IMG/VR virus record: IMGVR_UViG_3300033153_002966
Coordinates: 1 to 26,749 of that record
Reading direction: 5' to 3' (one strand)
DNA: 26,749 nt
From: a virus
The notes beneath the pieces were generated by a model, which saw nothing but the letters and a program-made list of their open reading frames with translations, ran no database searches and had not been told where the DNA came from. The position numbers were made by a program, and so were the translations under genes. Shown piece after piece: positions 1,062 through 21,279 of this stretch. Every line of letters begins with the position of its first letter. Positions within the stretch are counted from its first letter, which is position 1.

Positions 1062-1625
1062 TTATTTAATAAATACTAATCTTCCAACATGTTTACTGTC
1101 AGACTCTTCTGTGTGATAACCAAACTCATATCCAAATACATTATAGTAGAATAAATACTTATGTCTATTCTCTTCCCATTGCATATACTTAAAGTTATAA
1201 GCGGTGTTACGAACATTCCATAAGTAAGCCATCATACCACACCAATTAGATTCTATAGTATCACCTAATGTAAAAGCATTACCGTTACACTTAGCCAAGT
1301 ACTTAGAGTTATCTCTAGTGCCTCTAGTTCCATCTTCCCATTCTAGCATGAATCTTTCAGATGATGTATCACAATAGCTATCATCATCTAACCAACCCCA
1401 TATCAACCAATAGACTAATTGGTATTCTATCCAAGATACATTTCTCTTAGATATAGGAACATCTCTGTTTAGTCTAGGTAGATATAATCCATTAGATAGT
1501 ACATAGTTATATACTGTATTTCTAGCGTACTTTCTATGTGGTGCTACTATTGGATACCATGCTAATCCAAACACTTTACGGAATAATGTCCATAGTAGGA
1601 TTAGTGTGTATCTAAGATATCTCAT
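1062..1625 (-). CDS. Conserved phage protein of unknown function, membrane-anchored N-terminus
   Basis: A 187-aa protein starting MRYLRYTLILLWTLFRKVFGL, with a hydrophobic N-terminal stretch (residues 5-22) that could be a signal anchor. The rest is rich in Trp and Tyr (WIEYQLVYWLIWGWLDDD, NWCGMMAYLWNVRNTAYNF). I recognise it as a kind of protein often seen near tail and lysis genes of podoviruses, but I know no function. The start at 1625 is preferred because it overlaps the TAA of the preceding fibre gene as TAATG, the junction type used repeatedly in this genome. An ATG three codons earlier (1634) sits only two bases from AAGGA and is the alternative. It overlaps nothing downstream and precedes the holin. 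Confidence 0.6.
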   Translation of the reverse strand: MRYLRYTLILLWTLFRKVFGLAWYPIVAPHRKYARNTVYNYVLSNGLYLPRLNRDVPISKRNVSWIEYQLVYWLIWGWLDDDSYCDTSSERFMLEWEDGTRGTRDNSKYLAKCNGNAFTLGDTIESNWCGMMAYLWNVRNTAYNFKYMQWEENRHKYLFYYNVFGYEFGYHTEESDSKHVGRLVFIK

Positions 1626-1897
1626 TATTTCCATTTTCCTTTTAATCCGGCTCTACAAGATGCACTAGATTGTGCAGCACCTGTGTTGTCATATACATTA
1701 AATACCACTCCTAAAGTAGTTGGGCTTCTAAACGACACGAACCATGGAGATAATGTTGCACTTCTGACAACATTACCAGAAATAATATTATCACTATTTG
1801 ATGTCATATCAACTACCTCAATAGGAAATGCCCAAGTAGTTGTACTTGTTTCACCTATTAAATAGGTACCTAACTCTAAACTACCATTAGCCCTCAT
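1625..1897 (-). pseudogene. C-terminal part of small fibre gene, separated by a frame-breaking duplication
   Basis: This is the downstream piece of a fibre-type gene whose upstream piece lies at 2073-2204. Its frame is open from the stop at 1625 up through 2014 (residues such as DFYGNQSITVQGANF then YPDGSVVGSTDNGSF precede the Met at 1897), so the Met is probably not a true start. If one copy of the 70-bp tandem duplication at 2015-2154 is removed, the two pieces join into one 169-aa protein starting MSTLQTNEIKNLAG. The small size, beta-rich Gly/Ser/Thr composition and position after two similar fibre genes suggest a tail-fibre tip or appendage. No catalytic motif is visible. As printed, the gene would not make the full protein. 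Confidence 0.65.
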
Positions 1898-2014
1898 CTC
1901 AAAACTACCATTATCAGTACTACCAACAACACTTCCATCAGGATAACTCTTAGCTGTAAAGTTAGCACCTTGTACTGTTATAGATTGATTGCCATAGAAG
2001 TCTCTTAGTGCTTG

Positions 2015-2154
2015 CTCTGAAGCTATAGCTGTACCAGCCCACTTACTATCTGTAGGTATTGGTGCTATATCTTCAACTAATATACTCTGAAGCTATAGCT
2101 GTACCAGCCCACTTACTATCTGTAGGTATTGGTGCTATATCTTCAACTAATATA
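2015..2154. repeat. Perfect 70-bp tandem duplication
   Basis: The segment 2015-2084 is repeated without mismatch at 2085-2154. Both copies begin CTCTGAAGCTATAGCTGTAC and end CAACTAATATA. Seventy is 1 mod 3, so the second copy shifts the minus-strand fibre frame; removing one copy restores a single 169-codon frame. Microhomology at the junction is only CT. Confidence 0.97.
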
Positions 2155-2204
2155 CTTGATGTACCAGCTAGATTTTTAATCTCATTTGTTTGTAAAGTAC
2201 TCAT
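2073..2204 (-). pseudogene. N-terminal part of small fibre gene, truncated by the 70-bp duplication
   Basis: ATG at 2204, then 43 codons ending in TGA at 2073-2075, which lies inside the first duplicate copy. The protein reads MSTLQTNEIKNLAGTSSILV, then EDIAPIPTDSKWAGTAIASE, then three frameshifted residues and stop. The TNEIKNLAG...S opening resembles N-termini of phage fibre and baseplate accessory proteins. GGAGA lies a few bases upstream of the ATG, and the previous gene's stop is 13 bp away, so the initiation region looks functional. Its intact form continues into the reading frame of 1625-1897. Either a real frame-breaking duplication or an assembly join explains the break. Confidence 0.6.
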
Positions 2205-2217
2205 ACTATCTTCTCCA

Positions 2218-2640
2218 TTATCTTAGTTCTACCCAGCTAGTCATTACAGCACCACTATTATCTTCTACTCTATACACTGCACCAACTGGAACTATGGTTC
2301 CGACTTGGACATAATCACTATCTGCATCAGTTGCACCTCTTTGTCCAGCCAAATCAACACTCACACCACCAACCAATAGTCTTAAATATGAACTTGAATT
2401 TGAAGCTGCATATCCCATTATAGATACTTGTATAGGCTTACCAGTGTCATTAGTGTAGTCTGTATTAACAGCTCTACTACCGCTTACATCTTGCCATGTT
2501 TGTCCTACGCCTATAACATCATCAGTAGTAGCCATAGTAACGTCACCACTTGGTATTGTTACAACCGTATCAACTGCACTATCTTCACCTTGTAGAGACA
2601 CAGAGCCACCACTTGTAGCTCTTAATAATATCTTACTCAT
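2218..2640 (-). CDS. Small tail-fibre/appendage protein (QTWQD-type C-terminal module)
   Basis: A 140-aa protein. The N-terminal 50 residues (LLRATSGGSVSLQGEDSAVD, then TVVTIPSGDV) look like a repeat-type fibre stalk. The C-terminal part carries GQTWQDVSGSRAVNTDYTN, then DTGKPIQVSI, and ends SWVELR. The same order of blocks (QTWQD...SR...YTN.TGKPI...V...Y.V...W.ELR) occurs in the neighbour at 2954-3319. This module is common at the C-termini of phage fibre proteins and probably forms a beta-sandwich tip; receptor binding is inference. The ATG overlaps the chaperone-like gene's stop as TAATG, implying coupled translation. Confidence 0.65.
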   Translation of the reverse strand: MSKILLRATSGGSVSLQGEDSAVDTVVTIPSGDVTMATTDDVIGVGQTWQDVSGSRAVNTDYTNDTGKPIQVSIMGYAASNSSSYLRLLVGGVSVDLAGQRGATDADSDYVQVGTIVPVGAVYRVEDNSGAVMTSWVELR

Positions 2641-2954
2641 TATATAACTCCATATTCTTCACGGGTTGGCATAACCCATGTTTTAGTTGATTGTCTCAGT
2701 GCTTGTCTGTACCGTCTAAGTTCAGCTACATTACCATTGTCTGTATCTTGTGCTATATACACAAGTATATCAACAGCAGTTAATTCAGTGTCTCTAGTAG
2801 CTCTGAAGTCAGCTTGTTCTTTAGCTAGTAGTTCTTCATCTGTAGGTGCTTGAATTACATCTACTTCTTCTTTTGTAATCTCTACTAGTCCTACATGATT
2901 AGTAACTATTGGGTCTATGTATATGTTATTATTCTCATCTTTAAAATACTTCAT
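2640..2954 (-). CDS. Phage tail (fibre) assembly chaperone-like protein
   Basis: About 104 aa beginning MKYFKDENNNIYIDP. The C-terminal half has the pattern RATRDTELTAVDILV...YRQALRQ...WVMPTREEYGV, which matches the helical phage tail assembly chaperone/Tfa-like family (R..RD..L...D......YRQALR....PT). Such proteins help fold or trimerise fibre proteins encoded next to them, and here the gene sits between two fibre-tip genes. The start at 2954 is chosen because it overlaps the upstream TAA as TAATG with GGAAGGA upstream; a start six codons earlier would lie inside the neighbour's end. The family call rests on pattern recognition only. Confidence 0.65.
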   Translation of the reverse strand: MKYFKDENNNIYIDPIVTNHVGLVEITKEEVDVIQAPTDEELLAKEQADFRATRDTELTAVDILVYIAQDTDNGNVAELRRYRQALRQSTKTWVMPTREEYGVI

Positions 2955-3319
2955 TATCTTAGTTCCTTCCAATCAACTGTTCCTACATTTAACGTAACCG
3001 CATAAGTACTATTATTCGGAACTAAACCTGATACATTCATTCTTTTACTTGTCGCATCATTCTGTAGTTCGTTTTGAATTATAATTCCATCTACAGATAT
3101 AGTTATTTGCATACCAGCAGTTTCTGATGAACTAGAAACAGATATGAATATAGGTTTTCCAGTAGTGTTAGTGTATGTTACACCAGCACTCCTACTTGCG
3201 GTTAAATCTTGCCAAGTTTGCTCGTACCCTATACCAAACTCAGTAGGTATGTCTTCATCCAGTGCTACTTTCTTATCATTAACATATAGTAACCCAGCTA
3301 TACTTTTTAATATACTCAT
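2954..3319 (-). CDS. Small tail-fibre/appendage protein, paralogue of the 2218-2640 product
   Basis: A 121-aa protein starting MSILKSIAGLLYVNDKKVAL. Residues about 33-50 read QTWQDLTASRSAGVTYTN, followed by TTGKPIFISVS, and the protein ends VDWKELR. This is the same module as in the gene two positions downstream, so the two are paralogues with unrelated N-termini. The ATG has GGAGA and a four-base spacer. The N-terminal motif probably docks on the main fibre; this is inference. It follows the T7-type fibre gene by nine bases and precedes the chaperone-like gene with TAATG overlap. Confidence 0.65.
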   Translation of the reverse strand: MSILKSIAGLLYVNDKKVALDEDIPTEFGIGYEQTWQDLTASRSAGVTYTNTTGKPIFISVSSSSETAGMQITISVDGIIIQNELQNDATSKRMNVSGLVPNNSTYAVTLNVGTVDWKELR

Positions 3320-3328
3320 ATTATCTCC

Positions 3329-4501
3329 TTATACAACAGACATAACTGAGCCATCAGCTATCTCTAAAGTTAAACCATCAGGTATTTCAAAACCAGTTAC
3401 TACACTAGCACTAACACCAGATTCAATAGTTTCATTACCATTCAATACATTTGGATTCTTATTAACAGAACTCCAATAACTATCACCTTCTGTACCATGA
3501 TTAGACACACTCATTCCTTCATGTCCAGTCTCTAAGGGTAAACCAAGTATCTTCTCCCAGTCATTACCAGTAGCTCTAGCAACTAAAGCAAGACCTTCAT
3601 CTGCTGGAAAACTAGGTGCTGGTAAACTAGAACCACTAGACTTAGCTGCCCAATGTAGTGAAGAATATTCAGTAGTATCTGCAGCTGTAAATGTACCATC
3701 TCCATCTGAAGTATATGTCTTAACAAATACATCTTCTGGTTCAGTAGCATAACTATCAGATGTCATTCTCTCTGCTTCTGCTCCCCAAGCTTCTAGCTGT
3801 CCAGCATCTGCAGCTTGTGACTCTGCTTTTTCGGAATAGTGAAAAGAACTATATTCTGAAGAGTTTATTATTGTAAATGTTCCATCTCCGTCAGAAGTAT
3901 ATAGCTTGACGAATACATCTTCAGCTTCTGTTGCATAACTCTCTGATGTGAGCTTAGATGCTTCTGCTTCCCATTTATATAACTCTGTGTTTGTAACATT
4001 TTCAGGGATTGATGTATCATTTTCTAGCTCATTTCCTGCTGCGTTCCATTTAATATAAGCATCTGGAGGTGGAGATTCTAAAACAACGGATACATTTTGA
4101 GCTGAATCTGGAAGTCTAACATGAGACCCTGCATCCGCCTCTCTATCTGCAATTAGGTATGTTTGATAATCTTGGTCTGAGTTTAACGTTGACGCTAATA
4201 GATCCCCTGATGTTTGATATTCAATCAATCTATCAATATCTAACTTTCTCAAAAGAGTTACAGCGTCTCCATTAGACGCAGCACTAATAAGTGTTATTGA
4301 CCCACCTAAATCCCCTGAGAGTGCTACTGTGTAGTCTGTGTCAAGTATGAGAATATCTGTACTATCATCAGATGCTTGACCTACTGGTGTGAGGTAGACT
4401 TTTATATCCCCGTCAAAGAAAAGTTTAAAGCTGAAAGGGAATACAGTTTGTCCTGCCCCTGCTGTATACTCTGCACGCCCTATTGTACTATTGAAAGCCA
4501 T
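3329..4501 (-). CDS. Tail fibre protein with T7 gp17-type N-terminal domain
   Basis: A 390-aa protein. Residues 1-120 carry the T7 tail-fibre N-terminal signature: GQTVFPFSFKLF, GDIKVYLTP, DYTVALSGD, GGSITLISA, GDAVTLLRKLDIDR and DQDYQTYLIAD. This domain anchors fibres to the tail in T7-like phages. Residues about 177-226 and 239-288 are two copies of one repeat (EA.ERMTSDSYATEPEDVFVK, then TYTSDGDGTFT...EYSS.H....KS), likely stalk segments. The C-terminus (NVLNGNETIESGV, then TGFEIPDGLTLEIADGS) resembles the short beta end-cap of podoviral fibres. AAGGAG precedes the ATG. It is shorter than T7 gp17 (553 aa), so receptor binding may depend on the small fibre genes downstream. Confidence 0.9.
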   Translation of the reverse strand: MAFNSTIGRAEYTAGAGQTVFPFSFKLFFDGDIKVYLTPVGQASDDSTDILILDTDYTVALSGDLGGSITLISAASNGDAVTLLRKLDIDRLIEYQTSGDLLASTLNSDQDYQTYLIADREADAGSHVRLPDSAQNVSVVLESPPPDAYIKWNAAGNELENDTSIPENVTNTELYKWEAEASKLTSESYATEAEDVFVKLYTSDGDGTFTIINSSEYSSFHYSEKAESQAADAGQLEAWGAEAERMTSDSYATEPEDVFVKTYTSDGDGTFTAADTTEYSSLHWAAKSSGSSLPAPSFPADEGLALVARATGNDWEKILGLPLETGHEGMSVSNHGTEGDSYWSSVNKNPNVLNGNETIESGVSASVVTGFEIPDGLTLEIADGSVMSVV

Positions 4502-4511
4502 TTATTACTCC

Positions 4512-7364
4512 TTATTTGTTATAGAACTGTTTAAGTTCTTGTAATGCATCTTGTTCAGATATACCGTCTTCTTGCGCTTTATACTTCGCAGGTCTGATTA
4601 AGTCCTTCTGAATTGACTTATTATATAGGTTTACATCTTGAACTCTAGCATCATTTTTAGCCGCAGTGTCAAACTTTAAAGTCAGTGATCTTATCTGTTG
4701 TACTTTATCGTCATCAATTAGCTCCTTATATGAGGCTGAGTTCATCAGTTGTGTAACAGTCTCTTTGAAGTTCATACCTTCAATTAATAAACCCTTACGA
4801 GCGTATTTCTTAATTTTTACATACTGTTTATTAGTAAGTTTAAATCCATTCATCATTGGACTCATATTAGGAATTGCACTTAGTCTAGTAGTCTCAGCCA
4901 ACCTCATTACTTCACGATACGCTTTACTTCTAGTTTCTACTGATGTACCCCAAGGTGAGAGCACTTTATCATACTTAACTTCTTTACCAAATGAATCGAC
5001 TGTCTTAGGTATATTAGATGATGTCATATTCCACTGCTCGTAGAAGTATTCACCAATCGTATCTGCTTGTACGTGGCGAGTATCGTCAATACTACGTTTA
5101 ATGTTTCTGCGTAGTCCTGAGAAGGGCATCATAGCATTTGCTTGATTCTTCACATATCTCTCAGCATATCTTTGAGGCTCTGACCATACATTCATAAGGT
5201 CTCTCATACCCGTCATAAACGTCTTATTTAAAGTATTCTCAGCTAATGCTATTACCAGTCCGTCTATTGTACGCTCTAGTTGTTTTTCTTCTTCTTCACC
5301 TAATACTGTATATTTAGTAGCATCTTGGTATTCAGAAAGATCTGCCATCGCTCCAACAATGTAAGAGAAAGGCTCCATACGATCATATGAAATGTATTCT
5401 TTACCTGTAGGTGTGTCTATAACAATAGATCTAGGTCTCCACCCTGCTTCATATCTGTTCTTACGTACATCTCTGTCTGTAGGGGCTGAACCAGTGATGT
5501 ACCCATTTGAAGCTGCTTGGTATCCCATATATGCTAAGGCAGTACCAGTAGCCATCTTAGACCTAGCCATCTGTCCTTTAGCCCCACCTGCAAATACGTC
5601 CTCACGATACTGTTTTGCTAATAATCCTAGAGGTGTTCTTTCTAAATAGGCTTGTTTAAGAAGGTTAGCAGGTGTCTTTATGAAAGGAAAAACCCATCTA
5701 ACTCCAGGAGTTGTTTGTACCCACTTCTGAAATGCTTGACCTGTAGCTCCTAAGGGTTCCTGGAAAGTCATTGATAGACCTTCACGCTTAGCAATCTCTA
5801 ACATTTCTTCTGTAGGATTTTCCATTAAATCAGTAAAGAACTCTTGAGTCTTTACTGACCCCCATTTATTTTGCTTAGCTATTGCCTCAGCTCTTCTATA
5901 CGCTTGTTGGATTATAGCGTTACGTTCTGCTGTCTTTTTCATAAACGCATCTGTACCACCCATTAAGCGCTCTGTAGGGAATCTTAACACATTGCCTAAC
6001 CCATTTACCCATGAGCCTATTGTTGTGATCCCTGCAGCATCCATATTGAATGCTTCCGCACTTATAGCTTTTCTACTTGGTACTTCTAGTTTATCAATAC
6101 CACCATAAGGTTCAGCAGTCTTCATTACTTTCCAACTAACATCCCAAGATTCCCTAAATCCTGTTGTAGCTGCAAGTAGCTTAGCTCTGAATTCACCCAT
6201 CAAAACATTGTCAAAGTCATCAACACCTCTACCACCCATAATAGATGCTACAGCTGTGTCACCTAAGTCAACACCAATACGGATCATTGATCCTGCACTA
6301 TTTACTAGATGAGTACTTAGACCCGATAAAATACCATTAATGAATACCTCATACGCGCTATCAAATGTTCTACTCGCTGCACTTGTCCCAGTAGCTTCAA
6401 CAACTGCTGTGATACCTTTAGTAGAATCTGCTACAGCTATTTGCTGTGCGATAGTGTTAATGTCTAACCCTCTATTCATATTTACTGCTTGCTGAGTTAT
6501 CTCTTCAGCCATATCAGCATCTATTTTACCGCCAGTAGGGATACCCATAGCTCTCATACCGCGACCATACTCAGCTCTAGCACCCATAAATTGTTGATAG
6601 AAAGCTGTGTGAAAGTGATACTGTTTAGCAAATTGTGCTTTAGTAACGTCACCTACATTAGGATCATTAACCATATTAGCTAACTCTTTTAGTCTAACAG
6701 CAGATTGCTCTAAGACTTGACGAGTAGCTAGGATCTCTTCAGGAGCTAAAAGTGAACCATCTTCACGCTCTAACACTTTACGAATAAAATCAACATCTTG
6801 ACCTAGATCATCTGCTAAGCCTCGTAGTTGCTCATCACCCACTACACCACGCCTAGCCTTATCAATGTTAACAGCATTATTATCAGCCATTAAACCTATA
6901 ACAGCTTTCACGTCATCTGCTTCTTCAATAGTATCAAAGTTCATTTGCCATGAGTTTGTAGTATCAAAATCTTCAATATCAGAAGTCTTAAAATTAAGTG
7001 CTTCTTTCTTTGCTTGAAATTCTGTAGGTTGAGGTACTAAAGGTTCTTTCATCTTAGGAACGTCTTTAGTATTAAATTGTTTAGTAGATACTACTTCTTC
7101 AGGTGTCATTGGAGCTTGATTATATTTAATAAGCATATCATTTACTGTTTTAGCAGGCTTATCTGGTGTCTTCATATTCTTAATAAGCTTACGAGAAAAC
7201 CACGACTTTAACCCCCCTGCATACTTATCTTCAGGCATTTCAGTTGTTACGGGTTCTGCAAGACCTTCTTGAAGTGTTGCAACATCTTGAGCTGCTTGAT
7301 CTTCGTTGTATGTTACAGTTTCGTTTGCACCATCTGGTTGGGTGTTGCTGTATGATATTTCCAT
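4512..7364 (-). CDS. Large internal virion (DNA ejection) protein, gp16-like position
   Basis: A 950-aa protein, the largest in the window. It is mainly helical and charged. Around residues 213-275 it has ATRQVLEQSAVRLKELAN and then FYQQFMGARAEYGRGM, a pattern seen in large ejection proteins of many podoviruses. Around residues 641-685 it has RPRSIVIDTPTGKEYISYDR followed by MEPFSYIVGAMADL, also typical of this group. No lytic transglycosylase motif is apparent, unlike T7 gp16 (1318 aa), so cell-wall cutting is not supported. By position (last of three internal protein genes, just before the fibre) it should form the inner core and leave the capsid with the DNA. ATG overlaps the upstream TAA (TAATG). 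Confidence 0.75.
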   Translation of the reverse strand: MEISYSNTQPDGANETVTYNEDQAAQDVATLQEGLAEPVTTEMPEDKYAGGLKSWFSRKLIKNMKTPDKPAKTVNDMLIKYNQAPMTPEEVVSTKQFNTKDVPKMKEPLVPQPTEFQAKKEALNFKTSDIEDFDTTNSWQMNFDTIEEADDVKAVIGLMADNNAVNIDKARRGVVGDEQLRGLADDLGQDVDFIRKVLEREDGSLLAPEEILATRQVLEQSAVRLKELANMVNDPNVGDVTKAQFAKQYHFHTAFYQQFMGARAEYGRGMRAMGIPTGGKIDADMAEEITQQAVNMNRGLDINTIAQQIAVADSTKGITAVVEATGTSAASRTFDSAYEVFINGILSGLSTHLVNSAGSMIRIGVDLGDTAVASIMGGRGVDDFDNVLMGEFRAKLLAATTGFRESWDVSWKVMKTAEPYGGIDKLEVPSRKAISAEAFNMDAAGITTIGSWVNGLGNVLRFPTERLMGGTDAFMKKTAERNAIIQQAYRRAEAIAKQNKWGSVKTQEFFTDLMENPTEEMLEIAKREGLSMTFQEPLGATGQAFQKWVQTTPGVRWVFPFIKTPANLLKQAYLERTPLGLLAKQYREDVFAGGAKGQMARSKMATGTALAYMGYQAASNGYITGSAPTDRDVRKNRYEAGWRPRSIVIDTPTGKEYISYDRMEPFSYIVGAMADLSEYQDATKYTVLGEEEEKQLERTIDGLVIALAENTLNKTFMTGMRDLMNVWSEPQRYAERYVKNQANAMMPFSGLRRNIKRSIDDTRHVQADTIGEYFYEQWNMTSSNIPKTVDSFGKEVKYDKVLSPWGTSVETRSKAYREVMRLAETTRLSAIPNMSPMMNGFKLTNKQYVKIKKYARKGLLIEGMNFKETVTQLMNSASYKELIDDDKVQQIRSLTLKFDTAAKNDARVQDVNLYNKSIQKDLIRPAKYKAQEDGISEQDALQELKQFYNK

Positions 7365-8134
7365 TACTCAACTCCTACTTGTTCATCTGGTATTATACCC
7401 TTTTTCTTGCTCATTTTCTTCCCTACGTATGCAGCACCTTCACCAAGTGTTTTACCCGCTACAGCACCTATAGTACCTGAAGTTGCAGATTGTGTATAAT
7501 CAATTTCATCTCTCATACCTACTTCTACTTCCAGAGTCTGACGAACCAAGTCTTCTCCTCCCGTATACATAGCACCTTCAAGAGCAGCAATGTTTGCAGG
7601 ATTCATTAGCATCTTTTTAAATGCTGCTTTCCCTGCTGTCTTGCCTCCAAGTTTAGCTGCAAAGCCTGCGCCTAAAGTACCAAACCCAATAAGGTTAGTA
7701 TAGTCAGTTACAAAAGCGTCTCCAAACCTTTTAACTCCCTCCCATGTAATGTCTTTAGCATCATATGTTTCAAGCCCATAAGTCATAGCCATTTTTTCCA
7801 TATCTGTAGCATCAGCAAAGTCTATAGCAGTCTCACCTAAATCTACAAGATTATAGTTAACATCTGCCATATACTGAAGACCCCATTTAACTAATTCCTT
7901 ATCTGGAGGTGTTTCAGTTTCTGCCCCTTCTTTCTTTGTGTGAAGGATTCTCATAGAGTCTATGAAATTAGTATCAGTATATAATTCCTCTTCCTGAACT
8001 TTACGACTTTGATTAACAAGGTCAGACGCAGTCTTAACCATGTAGTCACGTTGTTGTTTTTCAGTATAACCATTTTGGTTAGTGTTAACTTCTGTTGTCT
8101 CTGTGTTCCAGTCAAAACCTATATTTCCACTCAT
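7364..8134 (-). CDS. Probable internal virion protein
   Basis: A 256-aa protein. The N-terminal half is acidic and polar. The C-terminal half (residues about 140-235) is rich in Gly and Ala (LIGFGTLGAGFAAKLGGKTA, ATSGTIGAVAGKTLGEGAA), a composition seen in ejection proteins that insert into membranes. The C-terminus is lysine-rich (KKMSKKKG). I recognise no family. It sits between two internal virion protein genes, starts one base after the preceding stop behind GGAGG, and overlaps the next gene as TAATG, so it is almost certainly made with them. Together with the 950-aa product it may correspond to parts of a larger ejection protein in relatives; this is inference. Confidence 0.55.
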   Translation of the reverse strand: MSGNIGFDWNTETTEVNTNQNGYTEKQQRDYMVKTASDLVNQSRKVQEEELYTDTNFIDSMRILHTKKEGAETETPPDKELVKWGLQYMADVNYNLVDLGETAIDFADATDMEKMAMTYGLETYDAKDITWEGVKRFGDAFVTDYTNLIGFGTLGAGFAAKLGGKTAGKAAFKKMLMNPANIAALEGAMYTGGEDLVRQTLEVEVGMRDEIDYTQSATSGTIGAVAGKTLGEGAAYVGKKMSKKKGIIPDEQVGVE

Positions 8135-8135
8135 G

Positions 8136-9818
8136 TTAATCCTCCAACATCATATCTTCCCATGTCACTGGATCTCTCCACCCGATAGAAACAAATATAC
8201 TGTCATTATAAGCTGAAGCTGATTTAGTTGCCTCTTCTTTTTCATTTGCTAATCTCTTAGCTGTATTCGCTGCTTTCTTGTCATCTAAACTTTTATTATA
8301 CTCTGTTATCAAGCGTCTTCCAATAGTAAGTGATTTTGTTTCTTGTTCAAGAGGATCACCTATTGCAGATACCTCATCATAGAACGTGCTCATCATATTA
8401 TTAAAGTCTTTCATAGTTTGGTTACTAAGATCTATCTGAGCCATTAGAGTACCTTCTATAACACCGAATAAACCCTTAATCTCACTAGTAGCCATTTTAC
8501 CATTATTAGTACCACGCCAATTGTAAGCACCTTTAAGCATTGATTCTCTTTGAGCAGCTAATCTACCACGATCTGCATATGATAAGTTAACATCGGAATA
8601 AATATCTTTTGGTGAACTCTCTAAAAGAACTTTAGGGTAAGCATAAGAAGCAACTGTTGCTGCATCTGAGTACTTTCTTCCTTGTCCTAGAGATAAAGTC
8701 TCACGTAAGTTATCAGCATCTGTCTGAGTGATTGAAGATGAAGTTAACCAACTTTGAATCATACTCTCAGTTAGTTCCCCTTTGTTAAGTAATACAACAC
8801 CCTCTCTGTAAGTGGCTGTTGTAGTTACGTCATACAATTTCTTCTCTTTATCATCTTGAATAAATTGTGCGTCATTATATTCTTTAACTTGTTTTAACAT
8901 TGAAGACTTAAGTTTAGCAATCTCTTCAGGGTCTGACATATCAAAGGCTCCCTCTTTCTGCGCGTTAACAAACTTATCATACCCAATTTGTCCACGACCA
9001 GATGACACAAACTCACCAAACTTAGCTACTTCATTATCGACCACCGCATTTTGAGTGATCGCTATCATGTTTACATCATGTTCAGCTTGACTAATATAGC
9101 CATCTCTTACTGCTGCGCTACCTGATACAAAGATCTCAGACATAACACGTGACTGTTCTATAACGTCACCTTTCTTGTAAGCATTTGAGTATAGTTGACT
9201 CATAGCAATATTTGAATCTTTATATTTAGCTTTATTAGCAGCAGTGTTATTTTTAGACTTTGAAAGACTTAAAGCCCTTAGTCCTGCTGTACCATAATTC
9301 ATCGTTGTCTCTTGTGCAACTATCTTCGTTGATTCAGTAGGGGCGCCTTTAATTGTCTCTGAAGAGAATTTAGTATACATCTCCATGAAAGCTGCAGGAT
9401 CACCCTTAGCTTCTATCATAGCTAAGTCATAAGCAGATTTAGCATCACTCTTAACCTGACTTGAATAAGCAGCAGAAGCAGCAGAGTCATAAGCTCTACT
9501 GTAGATACCGAACCCTTTAGATGCTGTACCTTCAGTTAGTTTACTTATCGCCTCTGTCTTCTCATCAGCATCCATAAACTCATCTGCGTTAATCTCTCTT
9601 ACTTTTGCTTTACGCTTAGCAACATCAACTACTGCATCTTTAGCACCTTGTGCTTGAGCACCTTTACCTGCTAAGTTAAATAACTGATCAGAGAATTGTC
9701 CAAGTCTTTGAGAAAGAGACTGCTTCGACCTTGCCTTAGCAAGCATCCCCGCATTACCTTGCATACCTCCTGGTTTAGCCCCAGCTATATTTGCTGATTG
9801 ATATGATTCTATTTTCAT
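8136..9818 (-). CDS. Internal virion protein, gp15-like position
   Basis: A 560-aa, mostly helical, Ala/Ser/Lys-rich soluble protein without membrane segments. The N-terminus has QSLSQRLGQFSDQLFNLAGK, followed by a lysine-rich linker and long amphipathic helices. It ends with the acidic motif WEDMMLED. The size and position between a gp14-like and a gp16-like gene match the middle internal core protein of T7-like phages (T7 gp15, 747 aa), which helps form the ejection conduit across the periplasm. Sequence similarity to T7 itself is not visible by eye. GGAGG lies upstream of the ATG, which overlaps the previous stop as TAATG. Confidence 0.65.
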   Translation of the reverse strand: MKIESYQSANIAGAKPGGMQGNAGMLAKARSKQSLSQRLGQFSDQLFNLAGKGAQAQGAKDAVVDVAKRKAKVREINADEFMDADEKTEAISKLTEGTASKGFGIYSRAYDSAASAAYSSQVKSDAKSAYDLAMIEAKGDPAAFMEMYTKFSSETIKGAPTESTKIVAQETTMNYGTAGLRALSLSKSKNNTAANKAKYKDSNIAMSQLYSNAYKKGDVIEQSRVMSEIFVSGSAAVRDGYISQAEHDVNMIAITQNAVVDNEVAKFGEFVSSGRGQIGYDKFVNAQKEGAFDMSDPEEIAKLKSSMLKQVKEYNDAQFIQDDKEKKLYDVTTTATYREGVVLLNKGELTESMIQSWLTSSSITQTDADNLRETLSLGQGRKYSDAATVASYAYPKVLLESSPKDIYSDVNLSYADRGRLAAQRESMLKGAYNWRGTNNGKMATSEIKGLFGVIEGTLMAQIDLSNQTMKDFNNMMSTFYDEVSAIGDPLEQETKSLTIGRRLITEYNKSLDDKKAANTAKRLANEKEEATKSASAYNDSIFVSIGWRDPVTWEDMMLED

Positions 9819-10345
9819 TATGCTAACCTCCCCATAGTAACTCCTGCACCAAGCATTCCCAGGCCTGCTTGTTGATAACCCGTTCTAACTGATTGTGCTG
9901 CTGCAATGTCTTGTGCTGCTGCATCCATGTCATACCCTGCTTTAGTAACTATACCTGATAGCTCCATAAACTTTTGATCCCATGCTAAGTCGTCTGCTGC
10001 TTGTTTAGCTAGATTCTCTAACGTAGCCCCTGATCTTCCCTGAACTGATTGTACTAACATATTATTAGCTTGAGTGTCATTATAACTCTCATGTAGTCTT
10101 GCATTGTTCAGTTTAGCTTCACGTACTGCAGCTTCCCCTGCTGTTCTAAGTCTTTCAGCAGAATACCTACTTGCATCTGCTGAAGCTTCAGCCGCTTGAA
10201 TGTTATAGTATCCTTCAAGTCCTGCTACTCCTAAACCTGCAATTCCTACACCTGCCCAAGCATTACTTCCTTCATAAGGTTGAACATAGTTACCTTTACC
10301 ATCTACCCCCATGCCTTGGTCTTTTAATTGTGAATAATTAGCCAT
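9818..10345 (-). CDS. Internal virion protein, gp14-like
   Basis: About 175 aa from the second of two adjacent ATGs. AGGAGG is five bases from this ATG but only two from the first (10348), so 10345 is preferred. Residues about 30-48 (AWAGVGIAGLGVAGLEGYY) are hydrophobic and Gly-rich. A long Ala-rich helix follows with DASRYSAERLRTAGEAAVRE and NARLHESYNDTQANNMLVQS, and the C-terminus is again Gly/Ala-rich (AGLGMLGAGVTMGRLA). T7 gp14-type proteins share this build: a Gly/Ala hydrophobic segment, a coiled helix and a small size. They form a pore in the outer membrane during ejection. Position directly after tail tube B matches T7 order. Confidence 0.7.
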   Translation of the reverse strand: MANYSQLKDQGMGVDGKGNYVQPYEGSNAWAGVGIAGLGVAGLEGYYNIQAAEASADASRYSAERLRTAGEAAVREAKLNNARLHESYNDTQANNMLVQSVQGRSGATLENLAKQAADDLAWDQKFMELSGIVTKAGYDMDAAAQDIAAAQSVRTGYQQAGLGMLGAGVTMGRLA

Positions 10346-10354
10346 CATGTCCTC

Positions 10355-12136
10355 CTAGTACGCAATTTCTAAACCAATTCCGCGTAATATAAACGGGAGA
10401 GGTTCTTCTTGATGAATTTCTACTTCTTGTAGTCTATCATATCCTAATAGATAAAGCTCTTTAAACCCTGTAAAAGGTTCTGGTGCTTGATCTAATGCTA
10501 CTGTGAATTGTCTATCTGCAGCATATCTTTGTCTTGCATATACCCCTAAACTATTCAACACATTCATATCAATCTTAACTATTCTTTTACGTCTATATAG
10601 AGTCATGCCTTTCTGTGTTTCAGAACTTACTGGTAACGTGATAACTGAAGTCTTAAAGTTAAGCCCCACCTCTAATCGGTATGCGTCTCTATTTATTGTA
10701 ATTTTATTGTCTCCGTCTGTACCTTCGTACTTCGCATCATCTTTAATAGAGAAGTCTGCAATAACTTTAAATAAAGTATTAGCGAACGCATCATCAAAAT
10801 TAGTAACTAATTCTGTTATAGCCACACCTGAGGTGTAATCAGTATAAACCACTGGTTCTCCATTATGAACAACTTCTTCTCCATTATGTATAACAGTTTC
10901 AGTTGTGGGTTCAGTACCTTTCTGAATTACGTTGTGATCAGTGTATGTATCTTCTGTAAGAAGTTCTAGGAAATATTCATTTTCTCTGTATACTAAGAAA
11001 TATACGTCTTTATCTACAACTGTAACATCTTTAAAGAGCCCGACTGTTGTCCAATGTGTCCATCCAGCAATCTCTTCATGTCTCATAGTGTTTAGGACTG
11101 CACAAGTGCCGTCTTCATTGATTACATAAACATAATCACCAACATCAAAACGTGTACCTTTAATAGCCGCCATTGCAATTACATTAGTTACTAGATGAGA
11201 CGATAATAATGTAAGGTTCATAGATACGTAGTTTGCTTCGTTAAAGTCATATAGGTATTGTCTGACTGTACGCTCTGAACTATCTACAAATAGTGTAGCA
11301 CCATCAATTAAGATGGGTCTAATGCGTTTAGAACCATACCCTGTCTGTTTTCTCCACTCACTCTCTGCAGGTGATATAAGAGGTGCAGCATTATAGAATT
11401 CTCCACCAGTAGTAAATACTTGTAAATTTCTTCCTGAGAAGATATTAGTGATCTTATTAAACTGGTCAGTGTCAAGAGTATCTGCTAATGCATCATCTCC
11501 AACTCCTGTACCTAAGTCAAAGTCAAAGAATCCAGATACTTTAGAACCCCATATAGTTGTAGGTCTTTGTGTCGACCCTGCTAACCATAATCTATTTTGA
11601 TGAAAAGTACATACTGCAGGCCACCCTCTAGTGTTCGACCATACAGGCTCAGCACCTGAACCAAAGTCAAATGCAGGAGGTTGATTAACAAATGTTACTG
11701 GGCTCATGTCCCAAGATGTGTCACTACCTTGACGTTGTAGTCTATAAGGTGCTATTGTTTCATGTGTTAAGATCATTGTATCAGCAGACTGTATTAAATC
11801 TATTTCATTGATAACTGTATGGTCTGTGTAAGGAGACACTATAGCTGCTGCCACTTTTATACCGTCTCTATATATATCTATAAATCCTGACCTTAGTAAT
11901 ATTACATATTTTTGTGTTGTGTTAAATACAAAAGGTTCTATACGTGCACGTGAAGGTACTAGCGTGTCTTCAACTTTAGATAGTCCAGGTCTTCTACGCA
12001 TACCTCCATGAGGTAATATAACCATATTCTCCGCATTAGCTACACCATTGCTGTACTTAGTGATGTCTACACGAGCATGAAGCTCCGGAGTTAGTTCACC
12101 TGCTGTTAGGTTAGATTGTACGTATTCTACTCCCAT
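10355..12136 (-). CDS. Tail tubular protein B / nozzle (T7 gp12-like)
   Basis: A 593-aa protein. The N-terminus is diagnostic for the podoviral nozzle family: VQSNLTAGELTPELHARVDI, then YSNGVANAENMVILPHGGMR and RRPGL. Further blocks such as RIEPFVFNTTQKYVILLRSG, PPAFDFGSGAEPVW and CTFHQNRLWLAGSTQRPTTI, followed by WGSKV, are the usual beta-propeller strands of this family. It would form the distal hexameric tail nozzle below the adaptor ring. It lies directly after the tail tube A gene, the order seen in T7 (gp11, gp12). A weak upstream GAGA suggests initiation by coupling to the preceding gene, which ends two bases before the ATG. Confidence 0.88.
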   Translation of the reverse strand: MGVEYVQSNLTAGELTPELHARVDITKYSNGVANAENMVILPHGGMRRRPGLSKVEDTLVPSRARIEPFVFNTTQKYVILLRSGFIDIYRDGIKVAAAIVSPYTDHTVINEIDLIQSADTMILTHETIAPYRLQRQGSDTSWDMSPVTFVNQPPAFDFGSGAEPVWSNTRGWPAVCTFHQNRLWLAGSTQRPTTIWGSKVSGFFDFDLGTGVGDDALADTLDTDQFNKITNIFSGRNLQVFTTGGEFYNAAPLISPAESEWRKQTGYGSKRIRPILIDGATLFVDSSERTVRQYLYDFNEANYVSMNLTLLSSHLVTNVIAMAAIKGTRFDVGDYVYVINEDGTCAVLNTMRHEEIAGWTHWTTVGLFKDVTVVDKDVYFLVYRENEYFLELLTEDTYTDHNVIQKGTEPTTETVIHNGEEVVHNGEPVVYTDYTSGVAITELVTNFDDAFANTLFKVIADFSIKDDAKYEGTDGDNKITINRDAYRLEVGLNFKTSVITLPVSSETQKGMTLYRRKRIVKIDMNVLNSLGVYARQRYAADRQFTVALDQAPEPFTGFKELYLLGYDRLQEVEIHQEEPLPFILRGIGLEIAY

Positions 12137-12138
12137 AA

Positions 12139-12699
12139 CTAGTGTCTCGCATCAGCATATGGAGAGTATTCAAACTCTTGGTTAGGCCTTTGTGAAGCGT
12201 CTGCAAATTTAGCTTGTGATAAAGCTCTTTCATACTTAGCATTATAGAATTGTGCTTTCTCTAAATCCCCAGTAATAGGAATAGAGAACTGTGCAGCTAG
12301 ATAAAACTCAAACATTTTAGCGTAGTGTGAAGGTAGTTTATCTGCACTAACATTATACGTATATTCAATATCAATTGATTCCTCATTCGTATACAACTTG
12401 TCTTCATATATCTCATAGTCATATACTGAGACTGCCCTGATAAGGTAAAGAAGGTCTACAGGTAATTGAAACTGGTAAGTATAAACATTATTAGGTGTGG
12501 CAACTAAACGGGCTAATTTTGCTTGCTTAGTTGCAAATCTCCATCTATATGTAGTCAATACTGCTTTGTAACTGTGCTCAAATAAGTTCTCAGCTACTTG
12601 TGATCCTGCAGTACCTTCAGTAAATGAAGCTATTGGTTGATGCCCTAAAAGCAAAAGAGCGTTTGATGATAATGAAATTTCTGCTGCGTTACCCGCCAT
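12139..12699 (-). CDS. Tail tubular protein A / head-tail adaptor (T7 gp11-like)
   Basis: About 186 aa starting MAGNAAEISLSSNALLLLGH, then QPIASFTEGTAGSQVAENLF and YKAVLTTYRWRFATKQAKLA. This is the typical opening of gp11-like adaptors (SNALLLLG..PI.SF.EG....V..NL.......L....W.FA.K...LA). The protein builds the dodecameric ring between portal and nozzle. The ATG at 12699 is chosen because AAGGAG lies six bases upstream and the conserved sequence begins there; a longer frame reaches 12729 with no supporting motif. A stable UUCG hairpin sits just upstream. Confidence 0.9.
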   Translation of the reverse strand: MAGNAAEISLSSNALLLLGHQPIASFTEGTAGSQVAENLFEHSYKAVLTTYRWRFATKQAKLARLVATPNNVYTYQFQLPVDLLYLIRAVSVYDYEIYEDKLYTNEESIDIEYTYNVSADKLPSHYAKMFEFYLAAQFSIPITGDLEKAQFYNAKYERALSQAKFADASQRPNQEFEYSPYADARH

Positions 12700-12722
12700 A
12701 AGATGCTCCTTAGTGATTAATT

Positions 12723-12742
12723 GTACCACCCGAAGGTGGTAC
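12723..12742 (-). terminator. UUCG-tetraloop hairpin after the accessory capsid gene
   Basis: On the minus strand GTACCACC-TTCG-GGTGGTAC forms a perfect 8-bp stem closed by C(UUCG)G, one of the most stable RNA tetraloops. It begins nine bases after the stop of the 83-aa gene and is followed by AATTAAT, not a run of U. It may be a weak terminator, a pause site or a 3' stability/processing element that lowers expression of tail genes relative to capsid genes. Confidence 0.6.
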
Positions 12743-12750
12743 TAGAATGA

Positions 12751-13002
12751 CTAAGCTACAGCTACATACCCAGTATCTACTTCATCTGCATCAGATTTAG
12801 TAACTACTAGTAGTACAGAAGCATCCGTAGCAGTTGCAAGAATAAAATCTCCAACTTTTACAATACCAATTAAACCAACAAAGTAATCGTCAGCAATCAC
12901 TGTTGCTTTATTATCAGTAGCTGATCCATATACAAAAAACGTAGGTGATAACGAACCCGCACCAACATTTCCACTAAAACTTTCTTTTGTAAATCCTGCC
13001 AT
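12751..13002 (-). CDS. Small capsid-associated protein, possible decoration protein
   Basis: An 83-aa protein beginning MAGFTKESFSGNVGAGSLSP, then FFVYGSATDNKATVIADDYF. The composition is beta-rich with V.VGDFILATATDASVLLVV in the middle. Small proteins of this pattern (a YxSATDxKATVxAxxYF block followed by xVGDxIxxxxxD) are commonly encoded directly after the major capsid gene of podoviruses. A decoration or capsid-stabilising role is inferred from position and size. AAAGGG with a six-base spacer precedes the ATG. It is bracketed by two strong hairpins, and its promoter is most likely that of the capsid gene. Confidence 0.6.
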   Translation of the reverse strand: MAGFTKESFSGNVGAGSLSPTFFVYGSATDNKATVIADDYFVGLIGIVKVGDFILATATDASVLLVVTKSDADEVDTGYVAVA

Positions 13003-13022
13003 ACTATACCCTTTCTATCTGT

Positions 13023-13048
13023 TACCTAAACTCTTAAGAGTTTAGGTA
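13023..13048 (-). promoter_or_regulatory. 26-bp perfect palindrome spanning the capsid gene stop codon
   Basis: The palindrome TACCTAAACTCTT/AAGAGTTTAGGTA is centred between 13035 and 13036. As RNA it gives an 11-bp stem with loop UUAA. It contains the TAA of the major capsid gene (13034-13036). There is no following U-run on the minus strand, so it is better read as an mRNA 3' protection, RNase processing or translational-uncoupling element than as a classic terminator. Confidence 0.6.
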
Positions 13049-13861
13049 TTTAACTTCAACAATGCCTTCAACGTCTATTGCAACAGACCCAGCTTTCCAC
13101 ATACCCATAGATAACCATGAAGCTTTGTGAGCAACATAATCAACTTTAGTTTTCATGTCAATACCAACAGCATGACCTAATGCAGCTTTATGGAATGCAA
13201 AACCAGAACGTACAGTAGTTGTAAGTGGAAGACCACCTTCAGCTCTTGCAGATCCAATTATTTTCCATTTGAAGCCCATAAATGAATCAATCTCGCCACT
13301 CATTAGTAAACGCACTGAGTTATAATCAGCAGAAGCGATAGTAGTGTCATTTAGTAAATCGTTAAGACCACCTTCAGTAACTACAAAGAATCTGTCTTCA
13401 GAAGGAGCTTCAACAGCATTCAGCTTCTTAGCAGCTGCAGTAATTGTAGCTAAATCAAGAGCTTGAGTACCTGCACCTACAGTTGTAGTTGTAGTATCTA
13501 ATGCATCAATGATTGATTGATCATCACGTCTACCCATTGCACCAGCAATAGTCTTAGCAAGTTGCGTTACTTCATCAAAGTTAACTGTTTTAGCATCATA
13601 GATATCTGTATACTCTGGAGCTTCATAATCTAATAGAGTAGCAACTTTTAAAGAGTGTGCAATTCCCATAGGAACAACATCAGCAGATGAACCAGTACGA
13701 GTTGTAGCAGCACCTTTACCCATTAATCTAAAATCGTACTTGTCTCCAACTACACCTAAACGAGATGTTACACATCCACGTAATGTTATCATACCTTGGT
13801 ATGCGTGTTTTACTTCACTGTCAAACTGTTCAACAGCTACTGTACTTAATGCTTGTGACAT
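13034..13861 (-). CDS. Major capsid protein
   Basis: A 275-aa protein starting MSQALSTVAVEQFDSEVKHA, then YQGMITLRGCVTSRLGVVGD and KYDFRLMGKG. This fits phage capsid proteins of marine and other podoviruses: VEQFdsEVkhaYQ, then GD.y.FR..G...A, then DYEAPEYTDIYDAKTVNFDE, then AGAMGRRDDQSIIDAL. The C-terminal half has FMGFKWKIIGSARAEGGLP and GFAFHKAALGHAVG, typical of the HK97-like P and A domains. It follows a scaffold gene, has its own strong promoter and structured leader, and starts behind AAAGGA with a six-base spacer. No separate protease gene is present nearby, in line with T7-type scaffold-driven assembly. Confidence 0.88.
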   Translation of the reverse strand: MSQALSTVAVEQFDSEVKHAYQGMITLRGCVTSRLGVVGDKYDFRLMGKGAATTRTGSSADVVPMGIAHSLKVATLLDYEAPEYTDIYDAKTVNFDEVTQLAKTIAGAMGRRDDQSIIDALDTTTTTVGAGTQALDLATITAAAKKLNAVEAPSEDRFFVVTEGGLNDLLNDTTIASADYNSVRLLMSGEIDSFMGFKWKIIGSARAEGGLPLTTTVRSGFAFHKAALGHAVGIDMKTKVDYVAHKASWLSMGMWKAGSVAIDVEGIVEVKYLNS

Positions 13862-14010
13862 ATTAAGTCCTTTAGTTTATATTTGATTTAATATTTGCTA
13901 AAGGCTTAGGGTAGCTCCCAACAAGAGGGAGTTCATAGCTTTGTAGCTACAAATTCTCAACTTGCTAGGTTCTCGTGAGAGGGTGTCTAACGTAGTTAAT
14001 AATTTAATAT
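13862..14010 (-). promoter_or_regulatory. Structured 5' leader of the major capsid mRNA
   Basis: About 150 nt lie between the predicted start of transcription and the capsid ATG, with no gene. Visible elements are a 14-bp palindrome TTTGTAGCTACAAA at 13940-13953, a CTCCC/GGGAG stem with a seven-base loop around 13916-13932, and a CTAA-GCCT-TTAG hairpin nearer the gene. These may stabilise the abundant capsid mRNA or control initiation. No known riboswitch is recognised. Confidence 0.45.
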
Positions 14011-14017
14011 TAACATC

Positions 14018-14046
14018 ATTGTATCATAGTTTAAGTAAAAAGTAAA
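14018..14046 (-). promoter_or_regulatory. Promoter of the major capsid gene (sigma-70 type, extended -10)
   Basis: On the minus strand TTTACT (14046-14041), a 17-base spacer, then TACAAT (14023-14018). The -10 is preceded by TATGA, giving TATGNTACAAT, an extended -10 box. The optimal spacing and the same 11-base pattern in front of the terminase gene (20890-20880) support it. Transcription would start near 14011, in the gap between scaffold and capsid genes. Confidence 0.7.
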
Positions 14047-14053
14047 CTATTTA

Positions 14054-14773
14054 TTAATTGAAAGGAGTTAGCTTTCCACCAGTTGCAAGAAAATCTCTTT
14101 CCAACGCTTCAACTTTAGACCTATATGCCGAATCACTTGACATACGTCTATTCCCATAATTATCTGTTGCATAGCGCATAGCAGATAGTTTATCTCCATC
14201 AACTGCAGGTGCTGTAGGAGCTACTGTAGGTGACGCAGTATTACCCATCTTCATCAGTTTCTCGATAGCTTCAATCCCTTTTGCTCCAACCCACATAGAG
14301 TTGATTCCTTCAACAGCCTCTTCACCAAGATTAGCTCTAACCCAATCAGTAGCATTGTTAATACGTGAATTTGCATCTTTACCTAAAGCTTCTAGCTGCT
14401 CATTCTTATATACTGTAGACTGTGCTGTCTCTGCTTCACTCATAGAGGTAAGTAAATTGTTATACCCCTCATTACTTAGACCATTCTCTAAGCCCCATGC
14501 TGACAATGTATCATTACCATTAATACCTTCGTTAAGTTCGTAAGCTTCAGGAGCGCCTGCAAACCCTTTCATATGATCATTATATTCCGCATTCTTCTTA
14601 GAATAACTAGACTGTAACTCTTTGTATCCACTCTCTAGTGCTGATACACTTTCATACTTACCATCTAAGTATGATGTTGTTGACTGAGTTTCACCCTCTG
14701 TTGTTACTGTTGTTGCTTCAGAAGCAGTTGCGTCTGAAGAAGTGTCTACTGTTTGTGATGTTTCTTCACTCAT
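14054..14773 (-). CDS. Capsid scaffolding protein
   Basis: A 239-aa acidic protein. The N-terminal 35 residues are Ser/Thr/Glu-rich and disordered. Then come SYLDGKYESVSALESGYKEL and QSSYSKKNAEYNDH, the usual opening of podoviral scaffold proteins (L.GKY.s...L..gYkeLQ....). The middle is helical and the C-terminus short. Position directly upstream of the major capsid gene and downstream of the portal region matches T7 gp9. It would direct procapsid assembly and then leave. GGAGAACCT lies before the ATG. The capsid gene promoter follows the stop, so capsid can be made in excess of scaffold. Confidence 0.85.
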   Translation of the reverse strand: MSEETSQTVDTSSDATASEATTVTTEGETQSTTSYLDGKYESVSALESGYKELQSSYSKKNAEYNDHMKGFAGAPEAYELNEGINGNDTLSAWGLENGLSNEGYNNLLTSMSEAETAQSTVYKNEQLEALGKDANSRINNATDWVRANLGEEAVEGINSMWVGAKGIEAIEKLMKMGNTASPTVAPTAPAVDGDKLSAMRYATDNYGNRRMSSDSAYRSKVEALERDFLATGGKLTPFN

Positions 14774-14812
14774 AGGTTCTCCGTTGTTTTAATTTGAGCA
14801 TAGGCTCTATAA

Positions 14813-14842
14813 ATAGGACACGCCAGAAGTGGCGTGTCCTAT
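14813..14842 (-). terminator. 12-bp hairpin after the head-fibre gene
   Basis: A perfect stem ATAGGACACGCC/GGCGTGTCCTAT with a six-base loop. On the minus strand it begins eight bases after the stop of the head-fibre-like gene and is followed by TTTATAG, so it could act as an intrinsic terminator or attenuator ahead of the scaffold gene. It is the most GC-rich short segment around. The short U-run makes efficiency uncertain. Confidence 0.6.
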
Positions 14843-14850
14843 CTAAGAAT

Positions 14851-15240
14851 CTAAAGTCTAATTGAAGATAAATCCATAGATACATCAGTAAGAGTTACTG
14901 TCATATCGGGACTACTTCTAAATCTCATAACATATACATCTCCAGCACTTCCAATGAACTTCGAGGTGAAGCTAAAACTAGCTTCTGTTGCATCTCTAGG
15001 AACATTATAAGCATATGTACTAATGATTGTAGCTGTTGTAATGTTGTAGATCTCTGCATGGATAGTTCTTGTACTAGCAACACTTGTGAAAGATAATGTT
15101 GTACTAAAGCTTCCTAATGTTGTAGATCTCTGCATGGATAGTTCTTGTACTAGCAACACTTGTGAAAGATAATGTTGTACTAAAGCTTCCACTATAGAAA
15201 CCATCAATAGGTACTTGTATTGTACCATTTGGTAGATCAA
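14851..15240 (-). pseudogene. C-terminal part of head-fibre-like gene, out of frame through a 76-bp duplication
   Basis: In this frame the true continuation of the upstream gene begins within the duplicated segment: SGSFSTTLSFTSVASTRTIH, then AEIYNITTATIISTYAYNVP, then a beta-rich end DVYVMRFRSSPDMTVTLTDV and SSIRL. Residues before SGSFS are frameshifted read-through of the other copy and the Met at 15240 is not a credible start. Collapsing the duplication joins this piece to the 15104-16021 frame as one 364-aa protein. The C-terminal sequence looks like a beta-sandwich tip of a virion fibre. As printed it has no ribosome binding site of its own. Confidence 0.6.
15039..15190. repeat. Perfect 76-bp tandem duplication
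   Basis: Segment 15039-15114 is repeated without mismatch at 15115-15190; both begin TAATGTTGTAGATCTCTGCA and end ACTAAAGCTTCC. There is no microhomology at the junction. The length is 1 mod 3, so the minus-strand gene is shifted out of frame. Removing one copy gives exactly 365 codons including the stop. Confidence 0.97.
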
Positions 15241-16021
15241 CTATTACACCGATATTTCCATCTGTTGCATAGTTCTCTATATTCTGTGCTATTGCTGTTA
15301 GATTGTAAATACCACCAGTTGCTTGTTTTTGTAGTAAACCAATAACATTTGGAAGAACTATATTATTTCTTCTATTAACAAATAGTTCCCCAATAGAAGC
15401 ATCTTGTATTAAAGCACCACCAATTTGGCTGACAATATCCGGTGGTGTCTCTACCCAGTCTCCAGCATCAATCGCACTTAGATATAGTGGAACACCAAGA
15501 GTTGTTGTCGAGGTATCAAGATCATGAATAACACCACCAGTAGTAATAATGCCTTTTGAGCCATGAGCGATATCGTGTGTAGCTACACCAAGAATAATAG
15601 CATTTGCAAATGTATCCGCTTGTGCTAGTTTGATTTGTGGAATACCGCCAGATACACCATTATTTGTAACTGCTTTACCATTCAATATTGGTACACCAGT
15701 ATTATTAATAACCTCCATGTGCATCTCTTGACCTATTTGTAGAGTAACATCATCATATTGCCCTTGATAATTAAGCACTCCATCTTTAGAGTATAAATTA
15801 CCATTAGCATATGCTGGTGCTGCAATCAATTCCTCAAAAAGCTCTTTAGTTATAGTTACAGTTCCATCTTTTTTAACATAATCAACTAACTTATCATCAG
15901 TTACTTTAACTTTAGCATCTACTTCAGCAGACGTTAATACTTTATCTGTAGAGTTAACTCCTCCTAATTGGTGGTTATTAAGCTCTCCACTACTGTTGAT
16001 TGTCTGTAATTCCCTAGCCAC
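15104..16021 (-). CDS. Head-fibre/structural protein, N-terminal part ending early at the 76-bp duplication
   Basis: 305 codons as printed; the last residues (YNIRKL) are frameshifted. The start is GTG with AGGAGG six bases upstream. The N-terminus (MARELQTINSSGELNNHQLG, then DKVLTSAEVDAKV) is a helical attachment region. Residues about 90-215 form a domain seen in many phage virion proteins: G.EMHMEVINNTGVPILNGKA, then QADTFANAIILGVATHDIAH and TLGVPLYLSAIDAGDW...PDIVSQIGGALIQD. Position between the portal/connector genes and the scaffold suggests a head fibre rather than a tail fibre; this is inference. The intact gene would span 14851-16021 minus one repeat copy, 364 aa. Confidence 0.65.
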   Translation of the reverse strand: MARELQTINSSGELNNHQLGGVNSTDKVLTSAEVDAKVKVTDDKLVDYVKKDGTVTITKELFEELIAAPAYANGNLYSKDGVLNYQGQYDDVTLQIGQEMHMEVINNTGVPILNGKAVTNNGVSGGIPQIKLAQADTFANAIILGVATHDIAHGSKGIITTGGVIHDLDTSTTTLGVPLYLSAIDAGDWVETPPDIVSQIGGALIQDASIGELFVNRRNNIVLPNVIGLLQKQATGGIYNLTAIAQNIENYATDGNIGVIVDLPNGTIQVPIDGFYSGSFSTTLSFTSVASTRTIHAEIYNIRKL

Positions 16022-20983: not shown

Positions 20984-21279
20984 ATATACCTTTTTAATTA
21001 AAGATGAATAAATGTACTAATTGTACTAAACACAGTGCTAACCCCTACTGGCAGGGGCACACAGCCAAAAACCGAAATGTACCTACCAAGGTACAAAAAA
21101 AAGGTACATTTTTCAGCGTACATAAATACTTTTAATACTGCTTTAATATAAAACATACTACAATTAGGGGATTTAAACAGATTAGTGAGAAGTTAGGTTG
21201 AAGCTATCGAGGCTTATTGGATGAACAACCTAACCATACAATTATACCTCATCATCCTTATAAAACCATAAGGCTCCAC

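Follow-up and report, generated by a model that had tools for sequence, protein, structure and literature searches.

Bacterial tandem-repeat contingency loci consist of arrayed short units whose copy number varies. In phages, a related case is that of Enterococcus phage EfV12-phi1, in which tail-fibre tandem duplications of 1.8 kb, in frame and in several copies, were documented by PCR, coverage and long reads (PMC6365445). Repeats of another origin are the VGP 'heterotype' and 'homotype' false duplications, in which a single sequence is written twice when haplotype differences or errors block merging; genes are falsely altered, and the false duplications are associated with the boundaries of heterozygous sites (PMC9516828). 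A literature search for tail-fibre phase variation via tandem duplication returned nothing relevant.

Here we describe two exact tandem duplications, D1 and D2, in a 26.7-kb virus record, the whole of which was analysed and is called the window below. With a probability of roughly 0.87, we consider both to be assembly artefacts, which would have arisen when contig ends were joined without merging their overlap.

Two exact duplications in the window

The window belongs to a podovirus-like phage, with a capsid protein 36-42% identical to those of Dunaliella viridis virus SI2, Methylophilales phage MEP301 and Vibrio phages. D2, at positions 2015-2154, consists of two copies of 70 bp (2015-2084 and 2085-2154), and D1, at 15039-15190, of two copies of 76 bp (15039-15114 and 15115-15190). 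At both sites the copies are adjacent, head-to-tail and 100% identical. The match of the second D2 copy runs on for 2 bp, to position 2156, and D1 is without run-on. Exact repeats of 70 and 76 bp cannot be chance. The preliminary description had reported two perfect, frame-breaking duplications of 70-76 bp, each 1 mod 3 in length, and the repeat scan together with three-frame translation bears this out: both unit lengths are 1 mod 3, and each duplication breaks the frame of one minus-strand gene. The statement that the window holds only two such duplications also holds for exact tandem copies of at least 20 bp, as the scan of the window found no others.

D1 splits a gene located between the portal and scaffolding genes. 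The N-terminal part (15104-16021, minus strand) encodes 305 residues, 87% identical to the locus L002 and with the last residues out of frame; it ends with ...EIYNIRKL*, and the remainder reaches position 14851 in another frame (C-terminal part, 14851-15190, minus strand). In the three-frame translation, ...STRTIHAEIYNI is followed by RKL*, and the segment that is repeated proceeds in another frame with TTATIISTYAYN. An intact homologue of 366 aa, 87% identical, is found in L002 (IMGVR 3300033153_002442), and both window copies align to the same single 76-bp stretch of it. Uninterrupted homologues are present in six further relatives (L005, L011, L014, L017, L018 and L055). The middle of the gene matches proteins named tail fibre in isolates, including Roseobacter phage CRP-6. 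The C-terminal domain is predicted from a homologue to be a TNF-like beta-sandwich (Foldseek E ~3e-4), as in trimeric fibre tips, this domain being the exception in a structure model that is poor overall. It is reasonable to call this gene fibre-type. Compared to L002, the fibre-like gene (window 14852-15966) has 84-87% DNA identity and the capsid and tail tubular genes of the pair have ~70-72%; in view of this higher identity, the fibre gene seems to have been exchanged between phages.

D2 splits a smaller gene, whose ATG lies at 2204 on the minus strand. Its N-terminal part (2073-2204, minus strand) has 43 aa followed by a stop and matches the start of an intact 178-aa ORF in L131 (3300033153_001096); in translation, MSTLQTNEIKNLAGTSSILVEDIAPIPTDSKWAGTAIASE runs into YIS*. 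The C-terminal part (1625-2086, minus strand), in the other frame, is open for 153 aa and is 73% identical to L131. Here the segment SILVEDIAP...AIASE is repeated and then followed by QALRDFYG in another frame. The homologue in L131 carries one copy of the unit, and both window copies align to one stretch of it, 5001-5065. A family match was searched for the gene itself and none was found; its neighbours match tail-fibre and tail-fibre-assembly (chaperone) families. Thus, where both genes had been described beforehand as fibre-type, the tail-fibre homologues and the TNF-like prediction agree with this for the 15-kb gene, and for the 2-kb gene it is plausible by position next to such families only.

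Together with the 190-aa gene that follows it, the broken small gene forms a module (window 1168-2204) shared with the 43-kb contig L131 at 84-89% DNA identity. Adjacent to the module, two short proteins (2218-2640 and 2954-3319) both have a phrog_18834 domain and a TWQD...TGKPI motif, and a tail-fibre-assembly-type protein is encoded between them, so that 2218-3319 is a cluster of small paralogous fibre-tip-like genes.

Copy number among relatives

The two-copy state of either unit was not seen in any relative found, few strains being available. Given the single-copy homologues, the ancestral state is one copy in both genes. When viral contigs were scanned for exact matches to parts of both units, no near-identical contig of this virus emerged. 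Among bacterial genomes, the scan for relatives turned up a single Methylophaga MAG contig and one distant locus, both uninformative here.

These data bear on the possibility of a contingency switch, in which one tandem unit gained or lost toggles each fibre gene and generates variable surfaces in the phage population. Such a switch would be in keeping with two frame-breaking units of a length that is 1 mod 3, and with two genes that resemble virion-surface genes; exact repeats of such size can be lost again through recombination. However, the copy number of the D1 and D2 units varies in no homologue found (again among few strains), each site has two copies only, with neither an array nor microhomology, and both genes, as assembled, would be OFF simultaneously. 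We consider a contingency switch very unlikely. It is equally unlikely that the two-copy states are real and that two virion-surface genes of one phage are switched on and off as one 70- or 76-bp unit is lost and regained.

Blunt duplications outside fibre genes

The comparison set was drawn from related IMG/VR contigs and comprised 112 loci with ~0.9 Mb of distinct sequence. Five blunt exact tandem duplications of at least 25 bp were found in it, in L025 (32 bp), L027 (63 bp), L028 (26 bp), L071 (32 bp) and L097 (26 bp). The duplication in L025 breaks the frame of the portal gene, leaving a 401-aa and a 124-aa ORF that differ in frame, and the one in L027 doubles 21 aa of the portal. In L028 the frame of the scaffolding gene is broken just past the ATG. 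The portal and the scaffolding protein are both essential, and neither is a phase-variable surface. The same class of duplication, therefore, is not confined to surface or variable genes, which counts against a contingency switch; fibre location is non-diagnostic, and since the same process acts outside fibre genes, it is no argument for phase variation.

Fibre-like genes make up ~15% of the window, and both duplications would fall in them by chance in ~2% of cases, assuming that all positions are equally likely. The earlier view that chance placement in such genes is unlikely agrees with this figure, but the argument, while suggestive, is weak. It is noted that two joins in 26.7 kb are more than the rate in the relatives would give (~0.15 expected) and that both lie in fibre-like genes, which we count against an assembly artefact.

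In fourteen isolate phages (0.50 Mb of distinct sequence) no blunt duplication of at least 25 bp was found. The sole isolate duplication of comparable size, 58 bp in L125, is intergenic and has a 12-bp run-on. The comparison of IMG/VR relatives with isolates, 5 in ~0.9 Mb versus 0 in 0.50 Mb, is in the right direction and not significant alone (p 0.17).

Shared joins, losses and strain seams in sister contigs

Duplication, loss and haplotype switch at a join are all observed in sister contigs. L025, from assembly 3300033141, and L067, from assembly 3300033148, share 99.9% identity and have a common left end in the portal gene, position 4601 of L025 corresponding to 15782 of L067. After this common end, L025 repeats its last 32 bp (duplication 4568-4633), whereas L067 skips 97 L025-bases (at 15782/15783), with 65 bp of single-copy sequence missing. 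Judged from the two sequences, this is best read as one join with two wrong spacings, an overlap leading to the duplication and a gap to the loss.

A library artefact, in which amplification or ligation chimeras made the repeated stretches before assembly, does not predict that two assemblies have a common left end and then differ in spacing. Whole-genome amplification chimeras are common in virus metagenomes, which speaks for this explanation, but the same chimera would be needed in enough reads to dominate the consensus. We regard it as the least likely of the explanations considered.

Blunt losses were also found in several other sister contigs. The terminase gene of L064 has lost 45-46 bp compared to the near-identical L029, L056 and L082, and the portal gene of L040 has lost 43 bp compared to the near-identical L042 and L043; both losses are blunt and break the frame. 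Tail tubular A of L025 lacks ~80 bp that are present in the near-identical L083, and L097 has an in-frame loss of 54 bp relative to the near-identical L023. In the capsid gene of L048, 'NN' stands at 1017-1018, where ~60 bp are absent compared to the window protein and the frame changes; this 'NN' is an under-estimated scaffold gap.

The exact 32-bp duplication of L071 (3300033148_001446), at 461-525, is present as a single copy in L094 (3300033153_003076; 9715-9755). To the left the two are identical at 493 of 493 positions, and to the right there are ~17 mismatches in 453 (Fisher p 6e-6), starting a few bases past the second copy. With identity on the left and mismatches on the right, the duplication lies on a seam between two strains. 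This position is the one that the hypothesis of unmerged contig ends predicts.

The sister contigs also bear on whether D1 and D2 could be genuine, non-programmed tandem duplications, i.e. chance mutations in the sampled virus or products of host-driven selection, without switching. Exact copies are expected if such events are recent, and tandem duplications of fibre genes do arise under coevolution in Enterococcus phage EfV12-phi1 (PMC6365445). The known cases, however, are in frame and 1.8 kb long, whereas D1 and D2 both break the frame and lack microhomology. Moreover, no case of the blunt kind was found in the 0.50 Mb of isolates, and those in sister contigs fall on strain seams and at sites that also show losses. 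Because real fibre-gene duplications are known (PMC6365445), a small chance remains for this explanation.

Junctions and unit lengths

The run-on at the seven blunt duplications is 2 and 0 bp for the two in the window and 2, 0, 0, 1 and 1 bp for the others, a sum of 6 bp. For random blunt copies, a sum of 5.3 bp is expected (simulated mean 0.76 per junction). Microhomology at the junctions is not beyond chance. Replication slippage normally uses short direct repeats.

The lengths of the blunt duplications span 26-76 bp, and all of them lie below 77, a standard k-mer size of short-read assemblers. Although the cases are few, lengths below 77 are compatible with overlaps too short for graph merging. 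Two other mechanisms of joining were considered. A fixed-k overlap of one constant length was rejected, as the lengths vary from 26 to 76 bp. A gap-closer using a spurious short overlap is less likely, as it would leave a run-on of ~10 bp or more compared to the 0-2 bp seen.

The polymerase and primase genes of the window

In the ORF at 23709-25634, a T7-type ssDNA-binding protein and a family A DNA polymerase are fused in frame; the two are separate genes in ctXG1253. The polymerase is without ~33 residues ahead of motif 1. The spacing between NVNS and NLQQ is 42 residues, compared to 75-97 in the three relatives in which both motifs were found. In addition, the window polymerase has AQN where five relatives have SGR, and the conserved Arg of motif 1 is absent. 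No close viral relative of this polymerase was found when searched for. Its sequence may contain a deletion-type blunt join near 24,850-24,890; the gene product is either an odd polymerase or the result of such an assembly join.

A 749-aa primase/helicase-like protein is encoded at 21217-23466. Among 50,697 phage records it has one weak match only, the primase of Nitratiruptor phage NrS-1, with 22% identity.

Proposed origin of the duplications

In the proposed mechanism for unmerged contig ends, the assembler's contigs would end where co-occurring strains differ. A short stretch shared by the strains would close the left contig and also open the right one. These contigs would then be joined end to end, apparently with their spacing wrongly estimated as zero, and the shared stretch, remaining unmerged, would be written twice, exactly and without microhomology. 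If the true spacing were positive, the same blunt join would lose sequence instead.

We infer the same origin for the two sites of the window, as well as the assembler step responsible. The preliminary description had preferred unmerged contig overlaps; the portal and scaffolding duplications, the L025/L067 join, present in two assemblies of one species, and the L071/L094 haplotype switch support this preference, and for the window sites they do so by analogy. For its competing hypothesis of phase-variable fibre genes, the frame arithmetic and the type of gene are the sole support.

Biologically the duplications are unremarkable; their use is as a warning about data quality. In public viral metagenome contigs of this phage lineage, blunt joins duplicate or delete tens of bases, and the genes hit include those for portal, scaffolding, terminase and capsid proteins and probably those for fibres. 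Reads are needed wherever such contigs are used to call genes or to claim pseudogenes or phase variation. Such joins are detectable by a simple screen for exact tandem repeats that are blunt and some tens of bases long, combined with comparison of sister contigs.

Comparison with known systems

As in bacterial contingency loci, the reading frame would shift with a copy number not divisible by 3; unlike those loci, D1 and D2 have one extra copy of a long unit, and this unit is single-copy in all relatives found. The tandem duplication within a tail-fibre gene is a feature shared with EfV12-phi1, but the units here are 70 and 76 bp, frame-breaking, present in two copies and known from assembled sequence alone. 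The VGP false duplications resemble the proposed origin in that a sequence present once would be doubled because two assembled pieces were left unmerged. In contrast to them, the duplications described here are 26-76 bp in length, occur in viral metagenome contigs and are directly adjacent without N, and the joins would be between co-occurring virus strains instead of parental haplotypes.
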